From a virus, in the IMG/VR virus record IMGVR_UViG_3300044766_000192, positions 16,420 through 80,419 of that record: a stretch of 64,000 nucleotides of DNA, one strand, 5' to 3'. A program made the position numbers and the translations under genes. Positions 795 to 62,712 of this stretch are shown here, piece after piece; the first letter of the stretch is position 1; each line of letters opens with the position of its first letter. The notes under the pieces were generated by a model. It was not told the origin of the DNA. It did not search any database and was given only the letters and a program-made list of their open reading frames with translations.

Positions 795-816
795 CTGTCA
801 GAGCGGCGTGCTAGAC
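795..816 (+). promoter_or_regulatory. class A promoter box before the Dam-type gene
   Basis: Match to YTGTCAGAGC-N4-TGCTAG. The TAGACG hexamer ends 7 bases before the GTG start at 825, so the mRNA is probably leaderless. Confidence 0.7.
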
Positions 817-824
817 GAGCGTTC

Positions 825-1763
825 GTGGAAGCTGTTGCTACTGAAGTATCGCCGCCGCCGAACATCACACCCTGGCTTCGCTGGGCTGGTGGAAAGCGGC
901 GGCTAGCGGCAAAGCTCGCGACCGAGATCACGGCGATCAAGCCCAAGATGTACGTCGAGCCGTTCCTTGGTGGCGGCGCCGTCGCGCTCGCACTGCCCGT
1001 CGAGCTAAACAAATTCCTCGCCGACGTCAATCCGCACTTGATCGACTGCTGGCTCTGCGTGCAGAAGATCCCAGGCGCGCTGTTCGCTGAGATCCGCCGC
1101 GTCGAGGATCAGTACGGCAACGGCTCGCCTACTGCTCCGCACAGCGAAGAGGGCTACAAGGCCGCGCGCACCGAATTCAACACGATGATCAACAACCCGC
1201 GTCCGATGTGGGCTCGCCGGTCGGCGCTGTTCATCTTCTTGAACGCACGTTGCTTCAATGGTCTTTGGCGCACGAACGCGAGCGGGCGGTTCAACGTGCC
1301 GTGGGGCAAGCTCGCGATGCCGCGCTGGCTCGGCGCCGAGGAGATGGCGCACTACAGCTCTGCGTTGAATCGCTGCTCGCTGTACGCCGAAGGCTACGCG
1401 TCGCTCTTGGGACGGCTGGCAACCGCTGCATCGCGCAAGACGCGCGGAACGATCGACGAGCTTCGGCACATGCTCGATGGATTCGCCGTTTATTGCGACC
1501 CGCCGTACGACACCACGTTCGACGGCTACAGTAAAGACGGCTTCGATGACGCCGATCAGCGCGTGCTCGGCTCGATGCTGTCGTCGTGGGCGAGCTGCGG
1601 CGCTGCCATCTGGGCCACGAACGCCGACACGCCACTGATCCGCGAGATCTACGACTGGGCTCAGATCGAAGCGATCGACGAACAGCACTCGGTTGGAGCT
1701 ACCGGCGATCGTCGAGGCAAGCGAAGCTGTCTGTTGATTAGAGGAGGAGCTGCGATCCGATGA
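825..1763 (+). CDS. D12-class N6-adenine DNA methyltransferase (Dam type)
   Basis: A 312-residue protein that should transfer a methyl group from S-adenosylmethionine to adenine N6 in a short DNA site. The order of motifs is that of the D12/Dam family: RWAGGKRRL near residue 20, the SAM-binding YVEPFLGGGAVALAL near residue 50, and the catalytic DPPY motif in YCDPPYDTTF near residue 225. Length is slightly above Dam (about 280). It starts with GTG, without a Shine-Dalgarno site, 7 bases after a class A -10 hexamer. It may protect virus DNA from restriction or mark it for replication control. The target sequence cannot be read from the gene. Confidence 0.9.
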   Translation: MEAVATEVSPPPNITPWLRWAGGKRRLAAKLATEITAIKPKMYVEPFLGGGAVALALPVELNKFLADVNPHLIDCWLCVQKIPGALFAEIRRVEDQYGNGSPTAPHSEEGYKAARTEFNTMINNPRPMWARRSALFIFLNARCFNGLWRTNASGRFNVPWGKLAMPRWLGAEEMAHYSSALNRCSLYAEGYASLLGRLATAASRKTRGTIDELRHMLDGFAVYCDPPYDTTFDGYSKDGFDDADQRVLGSMLSSWASCGAAIWATNADTPLIREIYDWAQIEAIDEQHSVGATGDRRGKRSCLLIRGGAAIR

Positions 1764-2185
1764 AGTGTGAACTTTGCAACGAGCGTCTTCTCGCCCTGGC
1801 GGATCCATCCCGCATCGAGCTGTTCTACGTCGCGCATCCCGTCGGCATGGACCACGGAAAGCGGCTGCTCAACGTCGCGAACGCCAAGAAGTGGATCGCT
1901 AAGCTCGTCGAGGCCGTTCCTGATATCGGCTTCGTTGCGCCGTGGCTGCCTTACGTCGAAGTTCTCGATGAAGGCAAGTATCGAGCCCGTGGCATCCGCG
2001 ATGATCTCGAAGCACTACGACGTTGCGACGGCATTGTCGCGGTTGGCGGTCAGGGCATGTCCTCGGGCATGAAGGCCGAGTGGAGCAAAGCGAGCGAATG
2101 GGCTTTGCGCCGCGTCGACTATTCGGTGCGCGGACTCGAAGGCGTCGTCGATCCCAGAGACTTCGTATCAGGGTACGTGCTATGA
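1760..2185 (+). CDS. DUF4406 / nucleoside 2-deoxyribosyltransferase-like protein
   Basis: A 141-residue protein. After a short CELC start it has the pattern of the deoxyribosyltransferase-like superfamily: FYVAHPVG (strand plus turn), a helix, FVAPWLPYV, then RDDLEALRRCDGIVAVGG and GMKAEWSKA, whose Glu is at the usual catalytic position. Members cleave N-glycosidic bonds of nucleosides, but the phage DUF4406 branch is uncharacterised. Start overlaps the methylase stop by four bases, pointing to a shared operon. Confidence 0.7.
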   Translation: MKCELCNERLLALADPSRIELFYVAHPVGMDHGKRLLNVANAKKWIAKLVEAVPDIGFVAPWLPYVEVLDEGKYRARGIRDDLEALRRCDGIVAVGGQGMSSGMKAEWSKASEWALRRVDYSVRGLEGVVDPRDFVSGYVL

Positions 2186-2436
2186 AAATCTCACCCGAGC
2201 TTGATCGAATCATCTCGGCCATCGCCGAGGCCAAGATGCACCTGATCATCGCCGTCGCTTGCAAGGCCGGAAGCTCCGAGCGCGCCAAAGAGATCGAAGG
2301 CATCAAATGCTCGACGGCAGCGACGCGCGAGCTGTTGCCGTTGATCGGCGGCTTCGAGCGGCTGCCGAAGAACCTTGCGATCGAGCTGCGGACCTGCGAG
2401 ATGGCCGTCGAGCGGCTCGAAAAGCAAACCGCGTAG
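2182..2436 (+). CDS. small helical protein, unknown function
   Basis: An 84-residue, mostly helical protein (MKISPELDRIISAIAEAKMH...). Start chosen at the ATG that overlaps the previous stop by four bases; a longer in-frame reading would run back through the preceding gene and is unlikely. No recognisable domain. It is the last gene of the operon that begins with the methylase. Confidence 0.6.
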   Translation: MKISPELDRIISAIAEAKMHLIIAVACKAGSSERAKEIEGIKCSTAATRELLPLIGGFERLPKNLAIELRTCEMAVERLEKQTA

Positions 2437-2479
2437 CGACGAGTTGACGACGTGGCCTAGGCTGTGACAGCCTCCTCGC

Positions 2480-2608
2480 ATGGCAAAGCGACGCAGGAAG
2501 CACGGATCTGGCTGTTCCCCGAGTGGCAAGAAGAAGAACGGCAGGCTCAAGAAGGGCTACCGTTGGGCCAAGGGTCGCAAGGGCTGCGCGATTCCGGCGA
2601 AGAAGTAA
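2480..2608 (+). CDS. tiny basic protein, MAK family
   Basis: A 42-residue, very basic protein starting MAKRRRKHGSGC, with about 20 Lys/Arg, two Cys and a Gly-rich middle. It is one of at least nine small proteins in the window that begin MA(K/R) and are rich in Lys/Arg with a few Cys. Such composition fits nucleic-acid neutralisation, as in protamine-like or viral core proteins, but that is inference. A hairpin directly after the stop may end its transcript. Confidence 0.6.
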   Translation: MAKRRRKHGSGCSPSGKKKNGRLKKGYRWAKGRKGCAIPAKK

Positions 2609-2611
2609 ACT

Positions 2612-2629
2612 ACTTCGTTCGCACGAAGT
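2612..2629 (+). terminator. hairpin after the 42-residue basic gene
   Basis: Perfect 7-bp stem ACTTCGT/ACGAAGT with loop TCGC, two bases downstream of the TAA region and followed by only TT. Weak as an intrinsic terminator but well placed. Confidence 0.35.
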
Positions 2630-2665
2630 TTGACGCGCCTTCGTGAATGTGGGATCTTGCTCCAC

Positions 2666-2758
2666 ATGGCAAAGAAGAAAACGTGTCCCTTCGGCAAGGT
2701 CTCTCGCGGCAAGCGCAAGGGACATTGCCGGAAGCACAAGAAGTCCAAGAAGCACTAG
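2666..2758 (+). CDS. tiny basic protein, MAK family
   Basis: A 30-residue protein (MAKKKTCPFGKVSRGKRK...) with 14 Lys/Arg, two Cys and four His. Same style as the 42-residue gene just upstream: MAK start, Gly/Ser spacers, ends in a Lys/His-rich tail. No Shine-Dalgarno site is obvious. Function unknown; a condensing or capsid-internal role is possible. Confidence 0.5.
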   Translation: MAKKKTCPFGKVSRGKRKGHCRKHKKSKKH

Positions 2759-2852
2759 TTCGTCGTCGCTTAGGACGTAGCGCAGCCTCGCTGTGCTCGG
2801 CCAGGCGTTGCTCGGCAAGGTCTGGCAACGCAATCCAAGGAAAGGCGCCGCG

Positions 2853-3167
2853 ATGCTATCGCTTGAAACCTGGGAGCAAACCGCGATCTTCGATCCGGCC
2901 GACCCCACGCAGAAGAAGATCGAGAAGTACGTCGGTATCCCTGGCGGGTACGGCACGTTCTACTTCAACAAGGTCCCGACCACGAGCCAGTTGCAAGGCC
3001 CGTTCACCGACGGAATCTCGACGGGTGCCGGTGTCGGTATCGGCCTCGTGATCGCGAGCGTCGTGCTCGGCGCTGGCGCGTGGGCCGCGCACAAGACCGG
3101 CTTGCTCAAGCGCGGCAGGAAAGCCATCGCCGGACTCGGCGGCTACCGGCGTCGTCGGAGGCGCTAG
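2853..3167 (+). CDS. single-span membrane protein with Arg tail and IAGLG motif
   Basis: A 104-residue protein. Residues 1-50 are soluble (MLSLETWEQTAIF...), about 56-80 form one membrane span rich in Gly/Val/Ala, followed by KRGRK, then IAGLGG and a C-terminal run of six Arg. Start taken at the ATG preceded by GGAAAGG. The (I)AGLG motif recurs in seven other membrane or virion-type proteins of this window. Likely a virion membrane protein; no family recognised. Confidence 0.65.
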   Translation: MLSLETWEQTAIFDPADPTQKKIEKYVGIPGGYGTFYFNKVPTTSQLQGPFTDGISTGAGVGIGLVIASVVLGAGAWAAHKTGLLKRGRKAIAGLGGYRRRRRR

Positions 3168-3170
3168 CTC

Positions 3171-3422
3171 GTGGCGAAGCACGGTCCGATTCACAAGATC
3201 GCTGGCTATCCGAAGGGCGACAAGATCACAGATTGGCACGGCAAGCCGATCGGAACGATCGTCCACAAGAGCTGCAAGCGCGTGCGCCCACATGAGCGCG
3301 GCGCGTGGATTTCCAACGAGCGCTGCTCGTACACGGTCAAGATCGACGGCCGGCTCTACACGGGGCGCGGTCGTGGCGAAGGTATTGTCGTCAATCTTCG
3401 TCAGATGAAGCGAGGTCTCTGA
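3171..3422 (+). CDS. small basic protein, MAK family
   Basis: An 83-residue basic protein starting (GTG) MAKHGPIHKIAGYPKGDK. It contains two Cys and repeated short basic beta-strand-like stretches (CSYTVKIDGRLYTGRGRGEGIVV), suggesting a compact beta fold. Gap to the previous gene is three bases, and its stop overlaps the next start (TGATG). Function unknown. Confidence 0.6.
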   Translation: MAKHGPIHKIAGYPKGDKITDWHGKPIGTIVHKSCKRVRPHERGAWISNERCSYTVKIDGRLYTGRGRGEGIVVNLRQMKRGL

Positions 3423-3640
3423 TGTCGAAGTCGCGTCGTCGTATCTCGACGCAGTATTGCGTTGAAACCGGGCGTGCGAGCTGGCATCAACAGCGCGCCG
3501 GGCACATCTCGTCGGGCTCTACGTGCTTCTGGTCCAAAAAGCAGGCGAAAAAGTACATGCGCGGCTTCAAGAAGCATCATCCCGACGAGCCGGCGTTCAT
3601 CAGGTCGGAGCGCAAGCTGCGCCATTTCGGGGGGCGCTAG
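3422..3640 (+). CDS. small basic protein
   Basis: A 72-residue protein (MSKSRRRISTQYCVETGRAS...) with 19 Lys/Arg, two Cys and several aromatic residues; the tail is ERKLRHFGGR. Start by overlap with the previous stop. It belongs with the other small basic proteins in this operon. No known domain. Confidence 0.6.
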   Translation: MSKSRRRISTQYCVETGRASWHQQRAGHISSGSTCFWSKKQAKKYMRGFKKHHPDEPAFIRSERKLRHFGGR

Positions 3641-3642
3641 TC

Positions 3643-4080
3643 ATGCCAAGCATTCTTACGCTCGAAGGGCCGCGACTGCTCGGGTTCGGCACGCCGAAGC
3701 TCAAACTCCTACGCATGAACGGCGCGATCGGCGATGCGATCGGCTGCGCCGGTTGTCAGCCGCGAGGTTTCGGCGACGCCGCGAGTGACGATCTAGCACA
3801 CTTCAACAACGCGCTCACCGCGTACATGGCGCAGGTCGCCGCGGTTAATAAGTCGTCGACGTGGTTGGGCCTCATCGGCGGCGTTGCGGGCGTGGTCGCG
3901 GGTGTTCTGATCAGCCGCCGCGTAAGCAAGCGCAAATACGCCAAGCTTGGCGGCGCGGTCGCTGGCGGGCTCGGGCTCGGACTCGGGACGTTCTTCGCGA
4001 GCCGATCGATCATGATGCCGGACTTCGTTGCACCGCAGACGACGGCGCAACAGCTGCTCACAAAAGATCTGACGTTCTGA
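3643..4080 (+). CDS. two-span membrane protein, unknown function
   Basis: A 145-residue protein. It starts MPSILTLEGPRLLGFG, which shares the short hydrophobic N-terminal pattern and a near-match to the (L)xGLG motif seen in other membrane proteins here. Two Gly/Val-rich spans lie at about 75-92 (WLGLIGGVAGVVAGVLI) and 103-122, separated by a very basic SRRVSKRKY loop. Such a hairpin with a basic turn fits a virion membrane or holin-like protein; I favour virion because of the neighbours. Confidence 0.6.
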   Translation: MPSILTLEGPRLLGFGTPKLKLLRMNGAIGDAIGCAGCQPRGFGDAASDDLAHFNNALTAYMAQVAAVNKSSTWLGLIGGVAGVVAGVLISRRVSKRKYAKLGGAVAGGLGLGLGTFFASRSIMMPDFVAPQTTAQQLLTKDLTF

Positions 4081-5312: not shown

Positions 5313-5320
5313 AATCTCCT

Positions 5321-6613: not shown

Positions 6614-6616
6614 TGG

Positions 6617-9749: not shown

Positions 9750-10015
9750 CGAATGATTCTCCTGTCTGGCGCCATGGTGATGTGTTCTGGCGGTCCGACA
9801 TCCATTCCATATTGCCGTGTAGGGACGAACGGGATGAATGCGAAGCGTCGCCCGTCCTTTTGCACTGAGCCGTACTCCGCAGATGTCGAATCGACGACGA
9901 CGCCTCGTGCCTGCGTTTCAACGATACGATGTGCGATTAGCTTGAGGCCCCACGTGACTACATCGCCAACCTTGAATTTCTTGGCGAGCTTTTTCTGAAC
10001 GGCTCGACAACTCAC
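9746..10015 (-). CDS. small beta-rich protein with KOW/SH3-like start
   Basis: An 89-residue protein whose KFKVGDVVTWG and HRIVETQARGVVVD strands resemble small SH3/KOW barrels used to bind nucleic acids or peptides. GTG start overlapping the recombinase stop. Downstream end overlaps the zinc-ribbon gene. Assignment to a fold is by eye only. Confidence 0.5.
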   Translation of the reverse strand: MSCRAVQKKLAKKFKVGDVVTWGLKLIAHRIVETQARGVVVDSTSAEYGSVQKDGRRFAFIPFVPTRQYGMDVGPPEHITMAPDRRIIR

Positions 10016-10902
10016 GGTTTCTTCCCCTTCCTGAATTCGGCGAGCTGGCCGGCAACGGCCTTGCCGCGCGAGCCTCGGTCGTATCGACGGGTCGTCTTGG
10101 AGTCACTGTGATGGACCGATGCCTGGATCTCGTACTCTGGGAGCCCGGCGTCGTAGCAAGCCGTGATGAACGCAGCACGGAAGCAGTGCGGATGAACGTT
10201 CTTGGCTCCGACGGCTTTGGCGCGTTCGTTGACGAGCTTGTTGATGGTGAGGGGATTCAGCGGTCGAATACCATCGGCGCCCGGAAACATGAATTCGGAC
10301 GGTGGGGCAAGCCCTAGCCAGCGATCGATCGCTTCGATCGTGCTCTCGGGTAACTTGCTCTCGACTTCGTTGTCACCTTTGACGATGGCTCGCAGAATCC
10401 CATCGAAGTAGTCGGCTCGCTTGAGTGCCGCGATAGATGCACGGCGCAGCCCAGTGTCATAGAGCAGCCGTAGGATCGCCGCATCGCGCGCTCCGCGAGT
10501 CTTGTCGAGATCTGCGACGGCGTTTGCGATCATCGCCTCGGCGTCGTCAGCCGCCACGAGCCGCGTCTTGTTGACTGTGGACTCGGGGGGCCACGCCAGG
10601 ACGCTGGGATGGAACGGGTTCGAGGTGACGACGCGACCCGCTAGCAGCACGCGGTAGATTCCCGATAGCGATGCGAGCGCGCGGCGGGCGCTCCCACGCG
10701 ACAAGCCATCCCGAAACGCCGCTGCTGCGCTGAGCGGTGGCGAAATCGGCTTGCATCCGAATCGCTTGCAGAATTCAACCCAGTGATGCAAATCGGCTTG
10801 ATACGCCTTCCGAGTGTTATCGGATCGTTTCGCGGCGATCAACGAAAGCGCTGCGCTTTCGAATTCGTCGACGGAGATTCGGATGAGAGCTTGGTCGGAC
10901 AT
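10012..10902 (-). CDS. tyrosine recombinase (integrase/Xer type)
   Basis: A 296-residue protein. Residues 1-100 form a SAM-like arm domain (RSDNTRKAYQADLHHWVEFC). The catalytic domain shows Arg I in YDTGLRRASIAAL, a beta-hairpin Lys, the box HPHCFRAAF (HxxR), and VHHSDSKTTRRYD with the final His and the tyrosine nucleophile. It should cut and rejoin DNA at a specific site for integration, excision or multimer resolution. An AGGAG site lies 14 bases before the ATG. A block of words shared with the 19-kb region lies just upstream. Confidence 0.85.
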   Translation of the reverse strand: MSDQALIRISVDEFESAALSLIAAKRSDNTRKAYQADLHHWVEFCKRFGCKPISPPLSAAAAFRDGLSRGSARRALASLSGIYRVLLAGRVVTSNPFHPSVLAWPPESTVNKTRLVAADDAEAMIANAVADLDKTRGARDAAILRLLYDTGLRRASIAALKRADYFDGILRAIVKGDNEVESKLPESTIEAIDRWLGLAPPSEFMFPGADGIRPLNPLTINKLVNERAKAVGAKNVHPHCFRAAFITACYDAGLPEYEIQASVHHSDSKTTRRYDRGSRGKAVAGQLAEFRKGKKP

Positions 10903-16453: not shown

Positions 16454-16475
16454 TTGTAGCTCGCAGATCTGACAA
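16454..16475 (-). promoter_or_regulatory. class A promoter box
   Basis: Gap-free match to the box, with AGCTA in place of TGCTA. Here the start codon is about 28 bases away and has a ribosome site, so this mRNA has a leader. Confidence 0.55.
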
Positions 16476-27740: not shown

Positions 27741-27762
27741 ATCTAGCAGATTGCTCTGACAG
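27741..27762 (-). promoter_or_regulatory. class A promoter box
   Basis: Gap-free match. TAGATC ends seven bases before the GTG at 27732, reading leftwards. Confidence 0.7.
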
Positions 27763-27809
27763 CTAGCAGCACGGGGTGTCGGAGAGTTGTGATAGGAGCA
27801 TTCAAGCCG

Positions 27810-30722
27810 ATGAAGCTGACTCTCGTCACAGCCCTCTATGATCTCAGCAAGCGCGGTGCCGACAAGCATCGAACCATCGATTGGATGCTCGCGAATGGTA
27901 GCTTCGTCCTCGGGCAGCCCCATCACCTCGTGATCTTCACCGAGCCCGAGCTAGCCGATGAATTGAAGGCTCGGCGCGGCAATCGGCCGACGACGATCCT
28001 GACGCCGCCGATCGAGGTACTCGTTGATCCAGAGCGAACGGCAGCGATTTTTCGCGGACAAATCCAGCACAACGCAACACGCGACAAGGTCACGCCACAC
28101 TACATCCACTTGATGTGGGCCAAGTACGGGATGCTTGAGCACGCATTCGAGCGCGTAGACGTACCGATGACTCATCTCGGCTGGATCGACTTCGCGATCA
28201 CGCATGTCGCCAAGCTGCCGCCGGCCGACATCGACATTTTCGTGAATCCGCCAGAGCCGCCTCGTGTCCACATGCTTCGCTACTTCGACGCGAGTGATAC
28301 AGCAAAGCCCGAATATCTGCACAACGTTCAAGGGCATCTTGCTGGCGGCCTCGTCGTCGGTCATGCCGGTCAGATGCATCAACTCGTGCGCGAATTCTGG
28401 CAAGCAGCGGACGCTGCAATTCTACATGGGCTCGCGCCGCTCGATGAGGGCTTGCTCTCTGCGATCGTTGCGCAAAGCCCGAAGCGCTACTCGTACAGCT
28501 GCGGCGACTACTGTGACATCTTGCAGAACCACGACACGATCCGAGGGGGGCGCGATCACATCCGGTGGATGTACGACGATGCCGTTCAGCGTGGGGGGCA
28601 AGCCCGAAAATGGGCGGTAGAGCTTGCGCGATCGACGGTCACGAAATCGCCGCCAACGGCAGCCGTAGCAAAGAATTCGCTGCTCGGGCTCGTAATGATC
28701 GTCAAAGACGAAGCTCACGGAATCCGTGAAACGCTTGCCTCGTTCGCGCACTTCATCGATCGGTGGACGATCCTGGACACAGGGAGCACTGACGGCACGC
28801 AAGCCATCATCCGTGAAGCGCTCGTTGGTATCCCCGGCGAGCTTCACGAAGAACCGTTCATCGACTTCGCGACGTCGCGGAACCGCGCGCTTGAGTTGCA
28901 CAACAAGAAAACCACCTACACGATCATGCCGGACAGCGACGATCGCCTCGTCAACGGCTTGGCGCTGCGCGAGTTTCTTATCACCGACGATACATACCAA
29001 GCCCGCACCGACGCAGCGTACATGGTCAACCTGCGCCGCGGTGACCTATCGTATTTCTTGCCGCTCGTGTTGCGAGCTTCGGCCGGTTGGCGCTATCGCG
29101 GCGCCGTTCACGAGTATGTTGGCCCAGTCACGGGTGAGGGCTTTGCGTCGACGAAGATTCCCGAAGTTCAAATCGTCCAGGATCACGTACCACAGAGCCT
29201 CGAAGCTTCGCGCAAGCGCTGGGAGCGTGATCGGGTTCTGCTCATAGCCGAGCTGGCTATCAAGCCTGACGCCCCTCGCGCGTTGTTCTATGCAGGGCAG
29301 ACTCACGAATGCCTCGGCTATCCAAAGACCGCGCTCGGCTTCTACAAGCGGCGCGTCGTCGTCGGTGGCTGGGCTGAAGAGACCTTCGAGAGCTACCTAC
29401 GCATCGCGAAGATCTTGCAGGCACTTGACCAGCCGTGGCCGGAAATCCAGCAAGCATACCTTGATGCGCACGGCTTCGATCCCAAGCGTGCCGAGCCGCT
29501 GTTCAAGATCGCCGAGCACTGGTACGCCAAGCAAGTCCACGCGCTGTCATACCTGTTCGCTTCGCGCGCCGCCGAGCTACCGCGCCCGGCATCGGTGCTG
29601 TTCGTCGACGAGGAGGTCTACGCGTGGAAGGCCGCTGATACCGCGGCGATCAGCGGCTACTACCTCAACGATGCTAACGCGAAGGCTAAAGGCCGCGTGT
29701 TCGCCGAGCAGTGCGTGCGCGCCAAGCCAGGTGACGAGCGGCTTCGCGCTAACCGAGCATTTTATGCGCCGCCGGCTCGCGAGATGTTCGATGGTTACGA
29801 ATCAAGGGTGATCGGCTTCGTCCCAGAGGAGTCATGGAGTGCCACCAACCCATCAATCTTCTACGATGGCGCTAGCTGGCGCTGCATCGTCCGCACGACG
29901 AACTACAAGATCGTCAACGGCCAATACTTGACTCCCAGCGACAATGTCATCTACACGCGCAACTTCATGTTGGAACTTGATGACAACCTCAACACGACGC
30001 GTGCCGTCGAGATGATCGACGCTACCGGCTTTCCGCGATCGAGCTATCCGGTTCACGGCTTCGAGGATTGCCGACTGTTCAAGCACGAGGGCAAGCTCTG
30101 CTTCACGGCGACGGTTTGCGATTTCGATCTCGAACGAGCCACCGAAGGCCCACGTGAGATCGTGCTCGGTGATCTAGATCGCGACTACAAGATCGTCGGC
30201 GCGACACCACTGCGCGGCCCGTGGAGCGATCGAGCACAAAAGAACTGGATGCCTCGAAGCGGCGACGGCGTTGATTGTCGGGCCGATCTCATCTACGCGC
30301 TGTCGCCTAATGGTGGGGTACAGCCGACCGTGTTCAATCTCAGCTTCGATCTCGATGGGGCCGATCTCGATGGGGCCACGATCACGGCAGACGCGACGAA
30401 CTTTGATCACGGGCGGCTACGCGGCGGCTCGCAGCTCGTGCGCGTGCCCGAGGGCTGGCTCTGTATCGTTCATGATGTCTCGTGGCCAGGTACCGGGCGG
30501 ATCTACCTGCATCGCTTCGTATTGCTCTCCGGTCACCACAAGATCCTTGCAATGACCGATCCGTTCTACTTCGATCGCAAGGGCGTCGAATTCTGCGCTG
30601 GGCTCGCCTACGACAGTAAGCGGCTCGTCGCGAGCTTTGGCGTTGAGGATCGTGAGGCACACTTCGGGATCTTCACGCTCGAAGCCGTGCGCGCCGCGCT
30701 TCGCGTTGACTATCAGATCTAA
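27810..30722 (+). CDS. three-domain glycosyltransferase
   Basis: A 970-residue protein. Residues about 1-280 resemble HtrL/YibB-type glycosyltransferases (LTLVTALYDLSKRG; IHLMWAKYGML; HLGWIDFAITHV). About 290-480 are a GT2 domain: GLVMIVKDEAHGIRETL, WTILDTGSTDGTQ, FIDFATSRNRALEL, IMPDSDDRLVNG. A TPR-like linker follows. From about 660 the protein has beta-propeller strands like GH43/GH130 enzymes (WSATNPSIFYDG, GFEDCRLFKHEGKLCFTAT, RADLIYALSPNGG). ATG at 27810 follows GATAGGAG, which serves as either ribosome site or -10. Its stop overlaps the convergent collagen-like gene, a candidate target. Confidence 0.8.
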   Translation: MKLTLVTALYDLSKRGADKHRTIDWMLANGSFVLGQPHHLVIFTEPELADELKARRGNRPTTILTPPIEVLVDPERTAAIFRGQIQHNATRDKVTPHYIHLMWAKYGMLEHAFERVDVPMTHLGWIDFAITHVAKLPPADIDIFVNPPEPPRVHMLRYFDASDTAKPEYLHNVQGHLAGGLVVGHAGQMHQLVREFWQAADAAILHGLAPLDEGLLSAIVAQSPKRYSYSCGDYCDILQNHDTIRGGRDHIRWMYDDAVQRGGQARKWAVELARSTVTKSPPTAAVAKNSLLGLVMIVKDEAHGIRETLASFAHFIDRWTILDTGSTDGTQAIIREALVGIPGELHEEPFIDFATSRNRALELHNKKTTYTIMPDSDDRLVNGLALREFLITDDTYQARTDAAYMVNLRRGDLSYFLPLVLRASAGWRYRGAVHEYVGPVTGEGFASTKIPEVQIVQDHVPQSLEASRKRWERDRVLLIAELAIKPDAPRALFYAGQTHECLGYPKTALGFYKRRVVVGGWAEETFESYLRIAKILQALDQPWPEIQQAYLDAHGFDPKRAEPLFKIAEHWYAKQVHALSYLFASRAAELPRPASVLFVDEEVYAWKAADTAAISGYYLNDANAKAKGRVFAEQCVRAKPGDERLRANRAFYAPPAREMFDGYESRVIGFVPEESWSATNPSIFYDGASWRCIVRTTNYKIVNGQYLTPSDNVIYTRNFMLELDDNLNTTRAVEMIDATGFPRSSYPVHGFEDCRLFKHEGKLCFTATVCDFDLERATEGPREIVLGDLDRDYKIVGATPLRGPWSDRAQKNWMPRSGDGVDCRADLIYALSPNGGVQPTVFNLSFDLDGADLDGATITADATNFDHGRLRGGSQLVRVPEGWLCIVHDVSWPGTGRIYLHRFVLLSGHHKILAMTDPFYFDRKGVEFCAGLAYDSKRLVASFGVEDREAHFGIFTLEAVRAALRVDYQI

Positions 30723-31370: not shown

Positions 31371-33421
<2,051 letters not shown>

Positions 33422-34408: not shown

Positions 34409-34729
34409 CTACGCCCTCACCAATGCTTCGGGGAATGCCTCGGAGACAGAGATCGAAACTACTCCATCACCTCCGAGGCTAACAGCATAGATGCCCTGCT
34501 TGGGCGCAAGCACGAAGACTTCCGATCGATCTGACGGCAGCTGAAACTGTCCCGCTAGTCCGGCAGAAGCCTCGACGAGATCCGACGGCGAGAATGCTAG
34601 AAACACGAGTGCGGGCCCCACATTTCGCACGACGATCCGCAGCGGGTTTACCGTCGCGACGTAGAGCGTCGCCGGGTCTTTGAACCCGGAGATCGGTACG
34701 GCAACGGTGTTCATTAGAGACTCGCGCAC
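34409..34729 (-). CDS. small beta-sandwich candidate
   Basis: A 106-residue protein of short strands (LYVATVNPLRIVVRNVGPALVFLAFS; EVFVLAPKQGIYAVSLGGDGVVSISVS). GTG start preceded by GGAGG. It directly precedes the 328-residue gene and could be a capsid-cement or vertex subunit. Confidence 0.5.
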   Translation of the reverse strand: MRESLMNTVAVPISGFKDPATLYVATVNPLRIVVRNVGPALVFLAFSPSDLVEASAGLAGQFQLPSDRSEVFVLAPKQGIYAVSLGGDGVVSISVSEAFPEALVRA

Positions 34730-34750
34730 TGTCAGACCTCCATGCTAGGG
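34729..34750 (+). promoter_or_regulatory. class A-like box reading into an antisense frame
   Basis: Matches the box without gaps but on the strand opposite to the surrounding genes. It may drive an antisense RNA or protein, or be coincidental overlap with the ribosome site of the gene at 34729. Confidence 0.3.
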
Positions 34751-40084: not shown

Positions 40085-40106
40085 GTGTCAGAGCAATCTG
40101 ATAACG
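40085..40106 (+). promoter_or_regulatory. class A promoter box
   Basis: Gap-free match with TGATAA. TAACGA ends seven bases before the GTG at 40115; an alternative GTG at 40085 would lie inside the box. Confidence 0.6.
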
Positions 40107-41113: not shown

Positions 41114-41135
41114 CTGTCAGAGCTGCGTGGTAGCC
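41114..41135 (+). promoter_or_regulatory. class A promoter box
   Basis: Gap-free match. TAGCCC ends six bases before the GTG at 41143. Confidence 0.7.
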
Positions 41136-41436: not shown

Positions 41437-41458
41437 CTGCCAGACCTCGATGCTACGC
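41437..41458 (+). promoter_or_regulatory. class A promoter box
   Basis: Gap-free match with CTGCCAGACC. TACGCC ends six bases before the ATG at 41466. Confidence 0.6.
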
Positions 41459-41599: not shown

Positions 41600-42289
41600 A
41601 TGGGCCACATCGTCATCAATGGTAACGAGATCCCCTGCCTCGACCACGGATACGTGGCTCTCGTCGACGTGATGGGCGACGACCGCACGCCGGCTCAGAC
41701 CGCGCGCACGAGCTTCCGCAATCGCAAGGAGCGAACGGCCGAAGAGGACGCCAAGCTCACAGACTACTTGATCCGCAATCGCCACAACACGCCGCTCGAA
41801 TTTGTGAACCTGCGTTTCTATATGAAGATGCCGATCTTCGTCGCGCGTCAGCTCGTGCGCCACCGGATGGCGAGCATCAACGAGATCAGTTATCGCTACG
41901 TGCAAGCTGCGCGCGAATTCTACGTACCAACGTCCGATCGCATGCAGCGAAAGGCCGAGACGAACAAGCAGGGCTCATCAGAGGAGATCGTCGACGATCC
42001 GCTCATGTGTAACCGGTTGATGGTCGCCGTCGGGCACCAAGCGTTCGACGCGTACGAGAAGCTCCTCGCACACGGGCTTGCCCCAGAGATCGCGCGTAGC
42101 GTATTGCCGCTCGGCACGTACACCGAGTGGTACTGGGCCGCTGATCTCCACAACACGCTCCACATGCTGAGCTTGCGGCTCGACCCACACGCGCAGTACG
42201 AGATCCGCGTCTACGCCGAGGCGATGTTGAATCTCCTCAAGCCGATCTTTCCGACGATCATCAGCTCTTGGGGGAAAATCCGTGGCTAA
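41600..42289 (+). CDS. thyX: flavin-dependent thymidylate synthase
   Basis: A 229-residue protein that makes dTMP from dUMP with methylenetetrahydrofolate, NADPH and FAD. The ThyX signature RHRMASINEIS (RHRx7S) is intact, with NTPLEFVNLRFYMKMPIFVARQLV before it and DLHNTLHMLSLRLDPHAQYEIR after it. GGGAGGTAGGG precedes the ATG. It is followed by overlapping DUF3310 genes; together they form the nucleotide-related cluster. Confidence 0.95.
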   Translation: MGHIVINGNEIPCLDHGYVALVDVMGDDRTPAQTARTSFRNRKERTAEEDAKLTDYLIRNRHNTPLEFVNLRFYMKMPIFVARQLVRHRMASINEISYRYVQAAREFYVPTSDRMQRKAETNKQGSSEEIVDDPLMCNRLMVAVGHQAFDAYEKLLAHGLAPEIARSVLPLGTYTEWYWAADLHNTLHMLSLRLDPHAQYEIRVYAEAMLNLLKPIFPTIISSWGKIRG

Positions 42290-49477: not shown

Positions 49478-49499
49478 TTTTAGCAGGCTGCTCTGTCAG
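49478..49499 (-). promoter_or_regulatory. class A promoter box
   Basis: Gap-free match with CTGACAGAGC. TAAAAG ends six bases before the ATG at 49470. Confidence 0.7.
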
Positions 49500-57218: not shown

Positions 57219-57221
57219 TGG

Positions 57222-57452
57222 CTAGCTTGTCGCCGAGTCGGAATTGATCGCAAGCCTCACGAGATCGTAGATCCGGCGCATCTCTTCTAGTGAGGCCGGG
57301 CGCCCGAGATCTCGCACAACCCAACCTGCGATGAAGTCTACGATCCCGGGCCAACTACTGTGGACCTGGCGCACGCGATCGATTCCGCCTTGAGCTTCGA
57401 TCGCCGCTGCGAGGCGTGGCTTGATGTCTTTCTTGAAGGCTTCGGTATCCAT
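57222..57452 (-). CDS. small helical protein
   Basis: A 76-residue protein (MDTEAFKKDIKPRLAAAIEAQG...) with helices and a tail ending SATS. ATG overlaps the ATPase stop (GTGATGG). Unknown function. Confidence 0.5.
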   Translation of the reverse strand: MDTEAFKKDIKPRLAAAIEAQGGIDRVRQVHSSWPGIVDFIAGWVVRDLGRPASLEEMRRIYDLVRLAINSDSATS

Positions 57453-59128
57453 CACCTCTCCTCAAACAACGTGTCGTTTGCTTTTACGGTCGCGCTTCCG
57501 GCATCGACGACAAGCTCCTTCGCCGCGAGCCGCGCCAGGTACGCATTGCGCGTCGAGACCTTGAATCCGGTGTTGTCATCGATATCGGGCTTCTCGATGC
57601 TGTTCGGGTAAGCGTTGATGAGCAGCTCGAACACGGCGCGCTCACCGGATGGAAGGCGTTCTATCCAGTAGTCGCGCAGCGCTTCACCGACGGGCAACGG
57701 CTCAGCATCCGGCATCGCGGCGATGCCTTCAGCGGTGGCTCGAATTCTGGCGCCCTCGTCAATCAGGTAGCCGCGATCTCGAAGCCGAGCGATGTAGGCA
57801 TTGCGCGTTGAGAGCTTGTAGCCCGCGAGCGTCGTTAGCTGCTTCTTGAACAGGCCATCAGCAAACTGAATTGCTGCGCGAAGCACGATGGCTTCACCGG
57901 GTGGTAATGGCTTGCTGTTGTCGATGATCTTCGGCTCGCGCTCGCGAAGGGCCTTGGCCGTTCCGGCAATCAACAGATCGATCGGCCGAACACCGTTCGT
58001 CGGCTTGTCCTCGTAGATCGGGCCCCGTGCAGCAATTCTGTGGAAATTCGTCACGCGATTGGTGATCTCTTTGATCGTCGTAACCTCGACACCGAGCATC
58101 GACGCGCGAGTCTCTAGTCGATTGGCAATCGATTCGAGCCGCTTGAGATCGGCGGGCTTGATCAGCTGCTTCTCGACGATCTGGATCTTCTCGGCCTTGT
58201 CGATGACGACAGGCTTCTTGCGAAGCTCCGTTTCGAGCTGCCTGACCTTGAGCTTCAGCTCGCCGACCGTTCGTAGCTCCTCTTCGGCTTCGCGGGGCAG
58301 GTTGTCAAGCTGGCCCAAGATCTTGCGGATGCGATCACTCGGTGGCGTCGGTGCAAGCGCGCGGGCGCCCGACTTCGGATGCGTCGTCTTCACCGGGCCG
58401 ATCTTGATCTTGTTGACGCCATTGGTGAGCGCGGGCCCGAACGCCCAGAATTCACCCGGTTCGAGGTTTCGCAGGTTCTGCGCGTCGGCGCGCGACGTAA
58501 AACCCAGCTCCTTGGCCGCGCGAACGATGTCGATGTCCTGCACGCAGCGCCCGACGAGCTTGTTGTTGCACTCGGCGGCAAGATCTTTGTGGACCTTCGA
58601 GATCCGTTGGGTCGCGCCGATCCCGCAGAACCCGCGCTTGCGGCCGAGCGTGAATAGATCGATCACGGCACTCGTGCTCTCACACTTCTCGCCTTCGGGC
58701 GCGAATTTGTGAACTTCGTCGACCACTACGATCAGCGACCGCCAGAGATCGCGCGGCGAGTTGACGAGCGCTTCGAGCGCTCGCTTGATGAACAGCCCGC
58801 GCTGCGTGCCCAGCTCGTAGATGTCGATGATCACCGACACGCCAAGCTCCAGGACCTTGCGCATGAGCAGAGCCGCGCTCTTGATGTCGGCGACGCAATC
58901 GCCGCCTTTGGGCGCCGCGAGGATGTAGTCGTACTTCTCGCGCAGCGTGTGAAACTCGCCCTCGACATCGAAGATGATCTGCGGTGCGAAGCTGTACGTT
59001 TGCTCGCAGATTCGGCGCACGCAGTAGCTCTTGCCGCCGCCAGAGTTGGCTTGGATGAGCATCCGCGATTCGATCAACTTCTCGACGTCGAGCGGGGCTC
59101 CGGTTCCTAAAGTCGGCTGTTTGGTCAT
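57452..59128 (-). CDS. HerA/FtsK-superfamily ATPase, candidate genome-packaging ATPase
   Basis: A 558-residue protein. Walker A LIQANSGGGKSYCVRR with Lys33, Walker B RSLIVVVDEVHKFAPEG, and a sensor-type GIGATQRISKVHKD identify the HerA branch of the FtsK-HerA superfamily. The C-terminal 300 residues contain a coiled coil and two repeats of a winged-helix-like unit around LSTRNAYIARL and VSTRNAYLARL. HerA-type ATPases pump DNA in tailless, membrane-containing viruses, where they replace terminases; bacterial HerA also works in repair. With no terminase visible here, packaging is the more interesting option. Confidence 0.75.
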   Translation of the reverse strand: MTKQPTLGTGAPLDVEKLIESRMLIQANSGGGKSYCVRRICEQTYSFAPQIIFDVEGEFHTLREKYDYILAAPKGGDCVADIKSAALLMRKVLELGVSVIIDIYELGTQRGLFIKRALEALVNSPRDLWRSLIVVVDEVHKFAPEGEKCESTSAVIDLFTLGRKRGFCGIGATQRISKVHKDLAAECNNKLVGRCVQDIDIVRAAKELGFTSRADAQNLRNLEPGEFWAFGPALTNGVNKIKIGPVKTTHPKSGARALAPTPPSDRIRKILGQLDNLPREAEEELRTVGELKLKVRQLETELRKKPVVIDKAEKIQIVEKQLIKPADLKRLESIANRLETRASMLGVEVTTIKEITNRVTNFHRIAARGPIYEDKPTNGVRPIDLLIAGTAKALREREPKIIDNSKPLPPGEAIVLRAAIQFADGLFKKQLTTLAGYKLSTRNAYIARLRDRGYLIDEGARIRATAEGIAAMPDAEPLPVGEALRDYWIERLPSGERAVFELLINAYPNSIEKPDIDDNTGFKVSTRNAYLARLAAKELVVDAGSATVKANDTLFEER

Positions 59129-59367: not shown

Positions 59368-59369
59368 CA

Positions 59370-59708
59370 CTAGCCCCGCCGCGTGTAAAAACGATCGAAT
59401 GCCGCACTCGTCGTGATGCCCTTCAACGCCTCGAATTCGGCGTCGGTGACGTCGCTGGCGATGTACGGGCTCTTTTCCAGCCACGATGCTCGAATCGAGC
59501 TCTGTTGGCGAATCTCCGTCGCGGTGACCTCGGTCAGCTCGATGTCACCCGAGGCGATGGCCGAGATCAATGACTCGCGCGCGATGTTGCCGTCTCGCGA
59601 CACCATGTAGACATCGAAAATTGCAATCACGTTGTAGAGCTTGAGGTCGACGCGATCTTTCTTGGGCTTGGTCTTGTCTTTGTCGGGGATCAGACTTGGT
59701 GCGCTCAT
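59370..59708 (-). CDS. unknown protein, 112 residues
   Basis: Starts MSAPSLIPDKDKTKPKKDRVDLK; beta-alpha with LISAIASGDIELTEVTATEI, helix, and a basic end RFYTRRG. Overlaps the previous gene by four bases. No domain recognised. Confidence 0.55.
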   Translation of the reverse strand: MSAPSLIPDKDKTKPKKDRVDLKLYNVIAIFDVYMVSRDGNIARESLISAIASGDIELTEVTATEIRQQSSIRASWLEKSPYIASDVTDAEFEALKGITTSAAFDRFYTRRG

Positions 59709-60334
59709 TTGATCTCACTTCCTGGCGGTCGAATCGAGTACGCGGCGAAGTAGAGGCCACGCTTCCACGCGATCGAGAACGCGCTGCGTTCGCGATCGTG
59801 CTTGTCGCCCTGGAGATGGCTCGTGGTTCCGATCGCGTCGCGACAGCGGTATTCGAGCACGAGCCTTTCGACGAGAGCCGGTTCGATCGGCAAGAACGCT
59901 GCGATCAGGATCTCGTTGTAGGCGATGCCGCCACCGTGCGAGTTGGCGATCTTGAGTTGGAAACAGCGCAGCGCAGTGGCGAGAAAGCGGATCGGATCGG
60001 TGTTGATCTTGGGTTGGATCAGCCCGTTGTAGAGCCTGCCAGCTTGCTCGTATGCGAGTGAGCTGTTCATGTGTGTGGTCGAGCTGGTCAGCGAGAGAAC
60101 CTCACGCGCATTTGCCATGTCGGGGTACGCGCTCGCTGATGACAGCGTCATCGCAGCGGAGCACGCGAGATCAACCGCGTGAGCACCATCGCGCCACGGT
60201 GGCCGGAACCAACCGTACGCTGTGTTGTCGAGCGCGTACTCGGAGAGCACACCGGCAAGCTCGGCAAGGTCATCGTCGATCGGCGTGGGCCGTCGCGCGC
60301 GTCGCGGAGCTTTTCGACTCAGATCCTTCGCCAT
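59705..60334 (-). CDS. unknown helical protein
   Basis: A 209-residue protein (MAKDLSRKAPRRARRPTPID...) with a basic start and then helices (DDLAELAGVLSEYALDN; SLAYEQAGRLYNGLIQPKIN). Class A promoter and leaderless ATG. First gene of an operon that runs into the zinc protein and the HerA-type ATPase. Confidence 0.55.
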   Translation of the reverse strand: MAKDLSRKAPRRARRPTPIDDDLAELAGVLSEYALDNTAYGWFRPPWRDGAHAVDLACSAAMTLSSASAYPDMANAREVLSLTSSTTHMNSSLAYEQAGRLYNGLIQPKINTDPIRFLATALRCFQLKIANSHGGGIAYNEILIAAFLPIEPALVERLVLEYRCRDAIGTTSHLQGDKHDRERSAFSIAWKRGLYFAAYSIRPPGSEIK

Positions 60335-60342
60335 GGATCAAG

Positions 60343-60364
60343 CTGTAGCAGCTCGCTCTGACAG
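60343..60364 (-). promoter_or_regulatory. class A promoter box
   Basis: Gap-free match. TACAGC ends seven bases before the ATG at 60334. Confidence 0.7.
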
Positions 60365-60369
60365 CTGGC

Positions 60370-60780
60370 CTAGTTCGGTAGCTGCGCTTCGTCGATGACG
60401 CGGGTGATCTTCTCGGCCTCGCCCTCGCCGTAGGTGTGCGCGTAGATGTCGCGAGCGATCGTCGGCACGTCCTGATTGGCCCTCAGCACCGCGACGAATC
60501 GATACATGTCGGGCAGGTCGAGGTAGTCGACGACGTTTCCGTTGCTGAGCATGATCGACGGGCGCAAGCGCCACTCGTCGAAGTCGGCATCCTCGCGCGG
60601 AATGTTGACTTGCGCCCAGCCGATGATCGGGACGATGAACAGCTGCCGGTGATTCTCCTCGCACTCGGGATCTTCACACGCTGCCGCGTAGACCGAGACC
60701 CACGACAGATTGGGATCTGGTGTGAATCCTTGGACATCAGCGCCGGGTGGCAGAGGCTCGGGGTGGGCGTTACACGACAC
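60370..60780 (-). CDS. unknown protein, 136 residues
   Basis: Starts (GTG) MSCNAHPEPLPPGADVQGF; CEDPECEENHRQLFIVP may bind zinc; then beta strands, helix DLPDMYRFVAVLRAN, and a charged end. Leaderless from a class A box (TAGATT six bases before GTG). No domain recognised. Confidence 0.55.
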   Translation of the reverse strand: MSCNAHPEPLPPGADVQGFTPDPNLSWVSVYAAACEDPECEENHRQLFIVPIIGWAQVNIPREDADFDEWRLRPSIMLSNGNVVDYLDLPDMYRFVAVLRANQDVPTIARDIYAHTYGEGEAEKITRVIDEAQLPN

Positions 60781-60787
60781 GCCGAGA

Positions 60788-60809
60788 ATCTACCATGCTG
60801 CTCTGTCAA
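60788..60809 (-). promoter_or_regulatory. class A promoter box
   Basis: Gap-free match with TTGACAGAGC. TAGATT ends six bases before the GTG at 60780. The TGA of the upstream reading lies inside the box. Confidence 0.7.
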
Positions 60810-60986
60810 CGCGCTTCGTCGATCTTGTTCAGGTGCATGATGCCGTCAGTCAGGCCGACCGACTCGATCGCGTCGTCGAAGGTGAATTCCTCCGAGTTGC
60901 TCGACAGCTCGGCGCATTGTCGACGCCGTTGGTGATCTCGGAGATCACGAAGCTCTCAGGTCTGTCAAATCGTTCTTGGGTTTCAT
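60806..60986 (-). pseudogene. small gene interrupted by a frameshift, possibly programmed +1
   Basis: The ATG at 60986 follows the helicase stop by two bases and gives MKPKNDLTDLRAS before TGA. Skipping one base at UCG-UGA-U puts the ribosome into a frame that stays open to 60806 and reads DLRDHQRRRQCAELSSNSEE, FTFDDAIESVGLTDG and IMHLNKIDEAR, with good coding character. No start codon exists in that second frame. Either a +1 shift is used or the gene is broken. Confidence 0.4.
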
Positions 60987-60988
60987 GA

Positions 60989-62644
60989 TCATTCGTCGTC
61001 ACTGCCGGTTGGATCTTCTGGATCACTAAAAGCGATCGTGTCGGCCGGATCCACCGGTTCCCACGCTGGGATGCTTGTGAGCCGAGCGTCGGTCTTGCGC
61101 CAGATTCGATAGCTCTTGTGGCCATCGGGAGCGAGCAGTTGGACGATGAAGTCGCGTTCGACGTGCTGTGAGCGCAGCTTCTGCGAGAGTAAACGTGCGT
61201 TCTTGTAGAACTGGATTCCGCTGGCATTGGCTAGCATCTCCATTTCCTGAAACAGCTGGAATAGGCCGATCTCGCGGCCTACGCTCGATCGGCCGCCTGG
61301 GCGGTATTCGATCCACTTGTGGAGCAGCTCGACGAGAGGATCTTCCTCATTGATGAAGGCGATCTGCTCGCCTTGGATTGCGCTGAGCAAGTCGACGACG
61401 GCTTCAGGCTCCCAGCCGACGACGCGCCCGACGACACGAGCGAGTGCGGCGAAGTCAGCCATGCGATGGACTTCGGTGGTCTGCTCGTCGAGGGCACCGT
61501 GTCGAATCTCGGCGACGATCTGATTCACGTACCAGAAGTATTCGCCGACGATCTGCGAGCGGTCAGCGCGAATCTGCGCTTCGAGTGATTCAAGCCGTGC
61601 AAAGCCGTCTCGACGATCGAGCCTCAAGATGATGCAACGATCGGCCGTGTCCTCACGTCGGAAGCTTGCCGGGTTCTTGCTAGCCACGGCGATGAACGCG
61701 TGGGGCTTGATCGTCGCCTCTTCGCTGTCGGTGAACAACTTGCGCTTGGTCCACGTACCCTTGGTCGTGTACGAGCAGATCGCATCGGGCAACCAATCGA
61801 TGTACGCGTCGAGGTTGTCGAACACCGCGATCGGGCTCCTCAACAGGAGCACGCCGAAATCGCTCTCTGCATTCTTCGAGAGGATCATCGGCTTGGAGTC
61901 ACCGAGTAGCGCGAGCTGAAGTAGCTGGCATGCCGCAGACTTTCCGCTACCCGGCGCTCCTTCGAGGATCATGAGCGGCTTGGTCGGCATCAGATCGGGG
62001 AATGCGAGCGCGAAGATCCAAACGATGAGGGCCATCCGCATCTGCTCGGCAGTGATCCCGCCCATACCAGTAGGCGAGTAAGACAGGCCGTCGACGAGTC
62101 GGCTGAACAAGATTCCGTGCTCACCGACCTCGGGCTCGACGGTCTTTCCACCATCATCATCGAGGAAGAACACATCGTCTTCGCCGTTGGGGACCTGCAT
62201 GATGTTCTCACCGTCGAGGCGCCACATCTTGCCGTCGTAGCTCGAAAAATAGGCCGTCTGGTTGCGGTAGGCGGCGTATCGACGGATCGCGACGCGAGCG
62301 CCGTTCTGATTCGCGTAGCTCCTGAATCGATCGAGGATGTCCTTTGCGGCGATTTCGCGCTCGGTGATCCCGTAGCGGCTCTCCATATACGTCCAGAACC
62401 TGTCACCACCCCTGCCGGGTCGCGGCATCGCAATGATCTCTTGCGTGATCCCGACGCAGAGATACGGCACGTTCTCGGGCACGGCGACGAGGAATGTCGA
62501 GCCCGTCGTGATCTCGATGTTCAGGATCTCGTTCCAAATGTTGACGCGTTTGGCTCGGGCGTTGGTGTAGGTCGTGTCGAGCTTGATGGCCATTCTTGTC
62601 CTATCGCGCGCCATGCGTGCTGAAAGCTCGGCTGGGGTAGGCAT
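60989..62644 (-). CDS. helicase/primase-like P-loop ATPase
   Basis: A 551-residue protein. Walker A LEGAPGSGKSAACQ (residues 227-240, Lys235), Walker B PIAVFDNLDA (271-280), and a sensor plus arginine region FIAVASKNPASFRREDTADRCIILRLDR fit viral superfamily 3-like or D5-like replicative helicases. The N-terminal 200 residues resemble the pre-helicase linker of such proteins; a primase active site is not evident. The C-terminal part holds a winged-helix-like FYKNARLLSQKLRSQ. Probable replicative helicase. Class A promoter; 15 bases separate its hexamer from the ATG. Confidence 0.75.
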   Translation of the reverse strand: MPTPAELSARMARDRTRMAIKLDTTYTNARAKRVNIWNEILNIEITTGSTFLVAVPENVPYLCVGITQEIIAMPRPGRGGDRFWTYMESRYGITEREIAAKDILDRFRSYANQNGARVAIRRYAAYRNQTAYFSSYDGKMWRLDGENIMQVPNGEDDVFFLDDDGGKTVEPEVGEHGILFSRLVDGLSYSPTGMGGITAEQMRMALIVWIFALAFPDLMPTKPLMILEGAPGSGKSAACQLLQLALLGDSKPMILSKNAESDFGVLLLRSPIAVFDNLDAYIDWLPDAICSYTTKGTWTKRKLFTDSEEATIKPHAFIAVASKNPASFRREDTADRCIILRLDRRDGFARLESLEAQIRADRSQIVGEYFWYVNQIVAEIRHGALDEQTTEVHRMADFAALARVVGRVVGWEPEAVVDLLSAIQGEQIAFINEEDPLVELLHKWIEYRPGGRSSVGREIGLFQLFQEMEMLANASGIQFYKNARLLSQKLRSQHVERDFIVQLLAPDGHKSYRIWRKTDARLTSIPAWEPVDPADTIAFSDPEDPTGSDDE

Positions 62645-62660
62645 GGAGCGAGGCGAATGG

Positions 62661-62682
62661 TGCTAGCACGTTGATCTGACAG
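62661..62682 (-). promoter_or_regulatory. class A promoter box
   Basis: Gap-free match with CTGTCAGATC. TAGCAC ends 15 bases before the ATG at 62644; a divergent partner lies at 62691. Confidence 0.65.
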
Positions 62683-62690
62683 CCCGCGCA

Positions 62691-62712
62691 TTGTCAGGCT
62701 CACGTGGTAGTC
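62691..62712 (+). promoter_or_regulatory. class A promoter box
   Basis: Gap-free match with TTGTCAGGCT. TAGTCC ends 12 bases before the ATG at 62726. Confidence 0.6.

Follow-up and report, generated by a model that had tools for sequence, protein, structure and literature searches.

The repeated box and its genes

The 64,000-nt stretch analysed here (the window) is part of the genome of an ~80-kb phage. It carries twelve copies of a box, mostly placed shortly before start codons, and one weak candidate, as follows (distances are counted from the end of the hexamer).

795..814, plus strand: box CTGTCAGAGCGGCGTGCTAG; GTG 825, D12 methylase, 7 nt
16456..16475, minus strand: box TTGTCAGATCTGCGAGCTAC; ATG 16425 (90 aa), 27 nt; SD-like AAGGA, not leaderless
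27743..27762, minus strand: box CTGTCAGAGCAATCTGCTAG; GTG 27732, thioredoxin-like, 121 aa, 7 nt
34729..34748, plus strand: box CTGTCAGACCTCCATGCTAG; ATG 34760, 183 aa, 8 nt
40085..40104, plus strand: box GTGTCAGAGCAATCTGATAA; GTG 40115, HNH-HTH protein, 332 aa, 7 nt
41114..41133, plus strand: box CTGTCAGAGCTGCGTGGTAG; GTG 41143, DUF4326, 97 aa, 6 nt
41437..41456, plus strand: box CTGCCAGACCTCGATGCTAC; ATG 41466, 43-aa ORF, 6 nt; then the ThyX gene at 41600
49480..49499, minus strand: box CTGACAGAGCAGCCTGCTAA; ATG 49470, 89 aa, 6 nt
60345..60364, minus strand: box CTGTCAGAGCGAGCTGCTAC; ATG 60334, 209 aa, 7 nt
60790..60809, minus strand: box TTGACAGAGCAGCATGGTAG; GTG 60780, 136 aa, 6 nt
62663..62682, minus strand: box CTGTCAGATCAACGTGCTAG; ATG 62644, 551-aa primase-like ATPase, 15 nt
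62691..62710, plus strand: box TTGTCAGGCTCACGTGGTAG; ATG 62726, intein-split SNF2 helicase spanning the record ends; divergent from the 62663..62682 box
27776..27795, plus strand: weak candidate box GTGTCGGAGAGTTGTGATAG, TGTCGG form, low score, not counted among the 15 below; divergent from the minus-strand box at 27762, precedes a 970-aa gene at 27810

All twelve gap-free instances of the original prediction were found in the sequence, each between genes, and the targets it named (D12 methylase, DUF4326, thioredoxin-like, HNH-HTH, primase-like ATPase, and intein-split SNF2 helicase) were all confirmed. A genome-wide scan located three further copies in the 16 kb that lie outside the window (L001:1645, 5495, and 14261, +), giving 15 in total, so the box does recur elsewhere in the genome. 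All 15 are intergenic, with a gene call that covers 76% of the genome. For minus-strand boxes, the coordinate first given was approximately the left end; the true 5′ ends are at 16475, 27762, 49499, 60364, 60809, and 62682.

A matrix built from the twelve window boxes scores its members at 18.5–29.5 and the best other window position at 12.5; leave-one-out scores of the 15 boxes range from 13.5 to 27.8. The pattern TGTC[AG]G-N10-TA occurs 16 times genome-wide, against a first-order Markov expectation of 1.8 (maximum 6 in 100), while spacings of 4–9 and 11–18 give 1–4 matches each. The distance from TGTCRG to TA is 10 bases in 15/15 boxes, and the genome-wide peak is at that spacing only. The upstream core, at −26, is TGTCAG in 12 boxes, TGACAG in two, and TGCCAG in one, and in the 15-site alignment its 3′ part reads A-[G/C/T]-C, with the mycobacterial gtg absent. 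TGn precedes the −10 in 14/15 boxes, the TA of the −10 is present in every box, and the final T of TAnnnT is found in just one. Two features had been missed: G-C-[TG]-A-[GA] precedes the box, with C at −3 in 15/15, and the sixth −10 base shows no conservation across the 15 boxes.

A start codon opening an ORF of at least 40 aa lies 6–8 nt past the box in ten of the 15 cases, against a random rate of 5% (binomial P = 4e-10). The earlier count of eight window boxes in which TAnnnn ends 6–7 nt before the start codon was exact, and a ninth (34729) ends at 8 nt. SD sites precede 1 of 13 box genes, versus 42% of all phage genes. Since the genes that start 6–8 nt after a box lack SD sites, their transcripts look leaderless, and the same two features would place the transcription start 6–7 nt after the −10. 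The distance of 6–7 nt, the import of which had been overlooked, is that of predicted leaderless transcripts. Judging from the sequence, the repeated box is a true promoter element of the phage.

A distance scan of the phage genes also revealed a second leaderless promoter class, which lacks the box. The final −10 T is present in 15/21 of these other leaderless promoters, versus 1/15 at boxes (P = 1e-4). A dyad search for a further common motif ahead of genes without a box yielded no signal beyond that of shuffled sequences.

Likeness to RecA-NDp/PafBC promoters

In mycobacteria, and probably in many other actinobacteria, the main activator of the DNA-damage response is PafBC. The published motif of its promoters, the RecA-NDp class, is tTGTCRgtg-8 nt-TAnnnT (PMC5656591), in equivalent form TGTC[AG]G-10N-TA-3N-T (PMC8151990). 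PafBC requires ssDNA and sits between domain 4 of sigma-A and the −26 motif (PMC11804915), an insertion that accounts for the missing −35.

The phage boxes share with these promoters the TGTCRG core, the 10 bases to the TA of the −10, the absence of a −35, the association with DNA-metabolism genes, and, by prediction, a TGTC centred at about −26 and an often leaderless start. They differ in lying in a phage genome, in having A-[G/C/T]-C in place of gtg, in the almost full conservation of TGn, in the missing final −10 T, and in that activator and inducer are putative. The original prediction of a regulon-wide promoter element, distinct from a sigma-70 −35 and placed ahead of replication and nucleotide genes, thus agrees with the −26 plus extended −10 geometry of RecA-NDp/PafBC promoters; that its spacing and −26 element are those of this known actinobacterial class had gone unrecognized. 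The suggested likeness to sigma-54 (−24/−12) promoters extends to two short blocks without a −35/−10 layout, but the GG at −24 and the GC at −12 are absent from the 15-site alignment, the spacing is another, and the start is predicted to be leaderless.

The same class in viruses and Actinomycetota

A search of IMG/VR with the related bait TGTCAGACCCC retrieved 119 contigs of very different GC content, which contain 464 boxes at N10 versus 0–8 at other spacings, with 26 boxes within 9 kb in the densest contig. The final −10 T is kept in 461/464 boxes of these low-GC ACCCC-bait contigs. Among 309 non-bait boxes from both viral scans, A is enriched at the predicted +1, which places the TGTC centre near −26. 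Across 27 records, including the present phage, there are 232 matches versus 4 for a reversed-pattern control. For the primase-like protein, close relatives turned up in just two IMG/VR contigs, both of which bear boxes.

Several observations bear on the hosts of these viruses. One protein encoded 3′ of boxes has phage homologues that come almost exclusively from actinophages (51/52 records), and for a relative of it the figure is 87/93. WhiB is encoded by 14/46 box-bearing virus records and by 7/45 control (scan-1) contigs, an enrichment that is not significant alone (P = 0.14). The WYL domain (PF13280) is found in 0/46 box-bearing records. Mycobacterium phage DroogsArmy has two single sites of the mycobacterial form. 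For the present phage, homology of the packaging ATPase, primase-like protein, ThyX, and GH25 lysin indicated no clear host.

When 397 Actinomycetota genomes were searched strictly, 12 matches were obtained versus 3 for the reversed pattern; the matches include two radA genes (leaderless, 6–7 nt), two rpsF genes (ssb operon), and one DUF222-HNH gene; the promoter class was also found at two recA genes. At 19 radA loci, TGTC[AG][GC]-N10-TAnnnT occurs five times versus once over 15 other spacings, and six relaxed matches end 6–7 nt before the ATG. The non-mycobacterial radA boxes likewise end their −26 element in something other than gtg. In genome_contigs, matches to the exact phage box are mostly chance and are informative only through the start-codon test, in which 4/12 matches from actinobacterial genomes, priA among them, have a start at 6–7 nt versus 2/104 from other genomes (Fisher P = 0.0009). 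By this sequence comparison, like boxes head the DNA-repair genes radA, recA, priA, rpsF-ssb, and DUF222-HNH in Actinomycetota.

A proposed host activator for the phage promoters

Given that the box resembles an actinobacterial, ssDNA-responsive switch of repair genes, this phage and dozens of others probably borrow the damage sensor of the host. We propose, as follows, that every box forms the core of a RecA-NDp/PafBC-type promoter read by sigma-A. TGTCAGA-C would be the −26 element, exactly 10 bases ahead of the TA in an extended −10 (TGnTAG), and the transcript would begin 6–7 nt past the −10, usually on the start codon, so that the mRNA would be leaderless. PafBC of the host itself, or a close WYL-family relative, is the most likely activator. 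Single-stranded DNA, arising from the phage’s own replication or from attack on the host chromosome, would switch PafBC on, and RNA polymerase–sigma-A would then use promoters without a −35 (“sigma adaptation”). Replication, nucleotide, and modification genes would thereby be tied to ssDNA, and the phage would need no activator gene. It is thus probable that the phage places its early and replication genes under the ssDNA-sensing PafBC of its host; the actinobacterial host, PafBC as activator, and ssDNA as trigger are here inferred rather than observed.

Several points speak against the PafBC proposal. The final T of TAnnnT is nearly lost at the boxes yet common in the phage’s other leaderless promoters, and the −26 element does not finish in the mycobacterial gtg. 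WhiB was not found in the phage genome, and phages of Thermus, Pseudomonas, and Roseobacter encode the closest homologues of its ThyX. No box arrays were present in four cultured actinophage regions examined. RecA-NDp promoters are reported for S. coelicolor (PMC5087735), but the M. smegmatis PafBC motif was reportedly not conserved in S. venezuelae in a 2022 Streptomyces study (PMC9380542).

The deviant −10 and −26 sequences could also mean that the same geometry serves another activator, with a non-WYL phage protein or a different sigma-adapting factor of the host having converged on the −26 element. Many phage genes are of unknown function, including that of the box-driven HNH-HTH protein, whose HTH resembles sigma-70 region 4. 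This is unlikely: N10 and the TGTCRG core are common to the cellular radA, recA, and priA promoters, and to 119 contigs of very different GC, so that an actinobacteria-wide host factor is the simpler explanation; WYL, moreover, is in none of 46 records.

The near-constant TGn and the leaderless starts would also suit a constitutive, activator-free extended −10 sigma-A promoter, with the upstream part as a UP-like or DNA-shape element. We consider this improbable, as the constancy of C, A, and G in TGTCAG, together with its fixed spacing, implies that a protein makes specific contacts there, an unaided promoter without the final −10 T would be weak, and the box-free leaderless class retains that T.

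An alternative sigma factor, of host or phage, that reads both blocks directly would explain two conserved blocks and a −10 unlike TAnnnT, and is very improbable. The phage genome has no match to sigma-70 region 2 (PF04542) at E up to 0.1, the sigma-54 GG and GC at −24/−12 spacing are absent, and a 10-base spacing leaves too little room for the sigma-4 and sigma-2 contacts that the known sigma-70 and ECF families make. An ECF-sigma reading was dropped, since spacing and blocks do not fit. The WYL domain (PF13280) likewise has no match in the phage record. Of the original suggestion of a virus-encoded or hijacked factor, the hijacked activator therefore stands as probable, while the virus-encoded sigma or activator was abandoned.

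Cluster A mycobacteriophage stoperators have a TGTCAAG core, and the many oriented copies of a partly similar core recall such repressor operators, but the GGTGG half is absent and the strict link to TGnTA and to starts at 6–8 nt is a promoter property, so this reading, scarcely credible, was rejected.

Implications

Returning to host PafBC as the activator, a wider proposal, to which we give an even chance, is that in a large, mostly uncultured set of actinophages (up to 26 boxes per record) it activates early and replication genes, with the ssDNA of infection as inducer. The −10 of the present lineage would have lost its last T, making the promoters silent without the activator. Among the listed titles and abstracts on PafBC with phage or prophage, none concerned PafBC-driven phage promoters.

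A precedent is offered by alphaproteobacterial phages regulated by CtrA, for which cell-cycle sites were described and binding and expression tested (PMC9437464). In both cases, sites of a host master regulator are concentrated in phage promoters (here, 15/15 boxes are intergenic and 10/15 are at starts), and the regulator is, here putatively, host-supplied. Unlike CtrA, the regulator here is a putative ssDNA-sensing activator of the damage response. DriD of Caulobacter and other WYL-domain activators also sense ssDNA in a RecA-independent response, as in the proposed use of PafBC; DriD belongs to a different phylum.

PafBC has so far been known only as a repair switch of the host. Should phages drive their replication genes through it, the damage response would be a viral resource too; ssDNA would serve viruses as an induction signal, and such phages should be restricted in pafBC mutants. 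For phages with a metagenomic record alone, the sequence of the box may also indicate an actinobacterial host, and the viral boxes amount to hundreds of naturally varied promoters with which sigma adaptation can be dissected.

Anatomy and Spacing of the Box

All 12 boxes of the original prediction were found in the window, and the expectation that the box should recur elsewhere was borne out by three more in the other 16.4 kb of the record. When the 15 sites are aligned, C at −3 (upstream of the columns first aligned), TG, CAG, and the TA of the −10 are invariant. Near-invariant are the T of TGTC (12/15), the A following TGTCAG, the C two bases beyond that A, and the TG of the extended −10 (14/15 each). 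TGTC[AG]G is separated from TA by 10 bases in every box; genome-wide, such pairs number 16 at this spacing versus 1–4 at each other spacing, with 1.8 expected. By gene call, all 15 boxes are intergenic. Immediately 5′ of the boxes at 795, 41114, and 41437, and of 27762 and 16475 on the minus strand, lies a copy of the −10 CTAG, a possible second contact or overlapping promoter.

Leaderless Layout and a Second Promoter Class

As claimed originally, the −10 ends 6–7 nt before a start codon in eight of the 12 window boxes, with one further box at 8 nt. Overall, 10 of 15 boxes have a start codon at 6–8 nt, versus a random rate of 5%, and an SD-like (Shine–Dalgarno) sequence accompanies 1 of 13 box-driven starts tested versus 42% of all called genes. 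Judged from sequence, the layout of the box genes is therefore that of leaderless transcription.

The phage has another leaderless promoter class, without the box and often of the form TGTGATAGGCT-6 nt-ATG, to which the GH25 lysin gene belongs. In a distance scan, TAnnnT ends 6–7 nt before 15 starts versus 0–2 at other distances. The final −10 T is missing in 14/15 boxes but retained in 15/21 box-less leaderless promoters.

Box-less leaderless starts (window coordinates)
5338, 25244, 45536, 46658, 47905, 48428; plus strand
5296, 8015, 22774, 23985, 25196, 27126, 43897, 54338, 56029; minus strand

Chromosomal Counterparts

In 397 Actinomycetota genomes, the strict pattern gave 12 matches versus 3 for the reversed pattern. 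The 12 include two radA genes in leaderless geometry (TGTCAGACCCCCCTGGTAGCGT-7-GTG and TGTCAGACCCCCTTGGTAGCGT-6-ATG), two rpsF genes, presumably heading the usual ssb operon, and one DUF222-HNH protein gene. In the genome_contigs scan, whose matches are mostly chance, a start codon lies at 6–7 nt in 4/12 actinobacterial versus 2/104 other genomes. The radA loci gave five matches at N10 versus one over all other spacings combined, and the recA loci four versus three. The box also stands 7 nt from the start of a Streptomyces priA and of two AspBHI/Mrr-type restriction endonuclease genes, possibly placing a Streptomyces defence gene under the damage response.

Streptomyces AspBHI-type enzymes, box 7 nt 5′ of start
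L041:3005-4236, plus strand
L066:601-1832, minus strand

Boxes in Other Phages

In each of the two virus contigs that encode a relative of the primase-like protein, 5–6 sites score at least 13. The TGTCAGACCCCNNTGNTAG scan retrieved 119 virus contigs, mostly of 34–52% GC, with 464 TGTCAG-N7-TGnTA boxes versus 0–8 at other spacings; 47 of the 119 have at least five TAnnnT boxes, and 80/116 AGC-scan contigs have none. The 309 non-bait boxes of both scans combined have TAnnnT as their −10 (T 99–100% in the sets of low and mid GC) and show an excess of A at the predicted start. One record has 26 boxes on a single strand within 9 kb. Because the virus records were selected by bait, these counts apply to box-bearing records, not to phages at large.

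WhiB is encoded in 14/46 box-bearing records versus 7/45 control contigs, an enrichment that is not significant. The family is not known outside actinobacteria and their phages; among 14 control genomes, Corynebacterium alone was positive. No WYL domain was found in the 46 records. Of the 52 phage records with homologues of a 177-aa protein whose gene follows a box, 51 are actinophages; a DUF932-like protein, likewise encoded after a box, is most frequent in actinophages. No box arrays were seen in four cultured actinophage regions. Mycobacterium phage DroogsArmy (L435) has two mycobacterial-form RecA-NDp sites, at 27880 and 22498 on the minus strand, one directly 5′ of the repressor gene.

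Genome Form and Other Genes

The record is 80,419 bases long, the window being its bases 16420–80419. A terminal repeat of 148 bases with one mismatch (window 63853–64000 and L001:1–148, L001 being the whole record) falls within a single uninterrupted reading frame, that of an intein-bearing SNF2 helicase. The genome is therefore probably complete, circular or terminally redundant, at ~80.3 kb, although IMG/VR classes the record as linear. At least three genes bear inteins. None of the proteins scanned was recognized as an ordinary terminase; the HerA/DUF87-type ATPase has plasmid-borne relatives in many bacteria and archaea. With a tyrosine-type integrase and a collagen-repeat protein among its genes, the phage may be temperate.

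Other genes of the phage
window 57452-59128, minus strand, HerA/DUF87-type ATPase, weakly similar to PHROG 'terminase large subunit'
L001:9616-14247, plus strand, DNA polymerase A with intein/LAGLIDADG/HNH insertions
L001:2649-5021, plus strand, intein-bearing 791-aa protein
window 10012-10902, minus strand, tyrosine-type integrase
window 32891-33415, minus strand, collagen-repeat protein

Likeness to the RecA-NDp/PafBC Promoter and Proposed Mechanism

The RecA-NDp/PafBC motif of the actinobacterial damage response is tTGTCRgtg-8 nt-TAnnnT (PMC5656591), in M. tuberculosis TGTC[AG]G-10N-TA-3N-T (PMC8151990), and such promoters also occur outside mycobacteria (PMC8223512; PMC5087735). The phage box has the same core and spacing but lacks the gtg and the final T of the −10. 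PafBC, a host activator, sits between σA domain 4 and the −26 element and needs ssDNA (PMC11804915).

The missing T may keep the core weak and the promoter thus dependent on its activator, but could equally be the sign of a different activator. In the proposed mechanism, host σA holoenzyme would encounter a promoter having TGnTAG and no −35; PafBC activated by ssDNA would bridge the −26 element and σA region 4; and the replication, nucleotide, methylase, and helicase genes would turn on. Phage replication would yield further ssDNA, and thus positive feedback.
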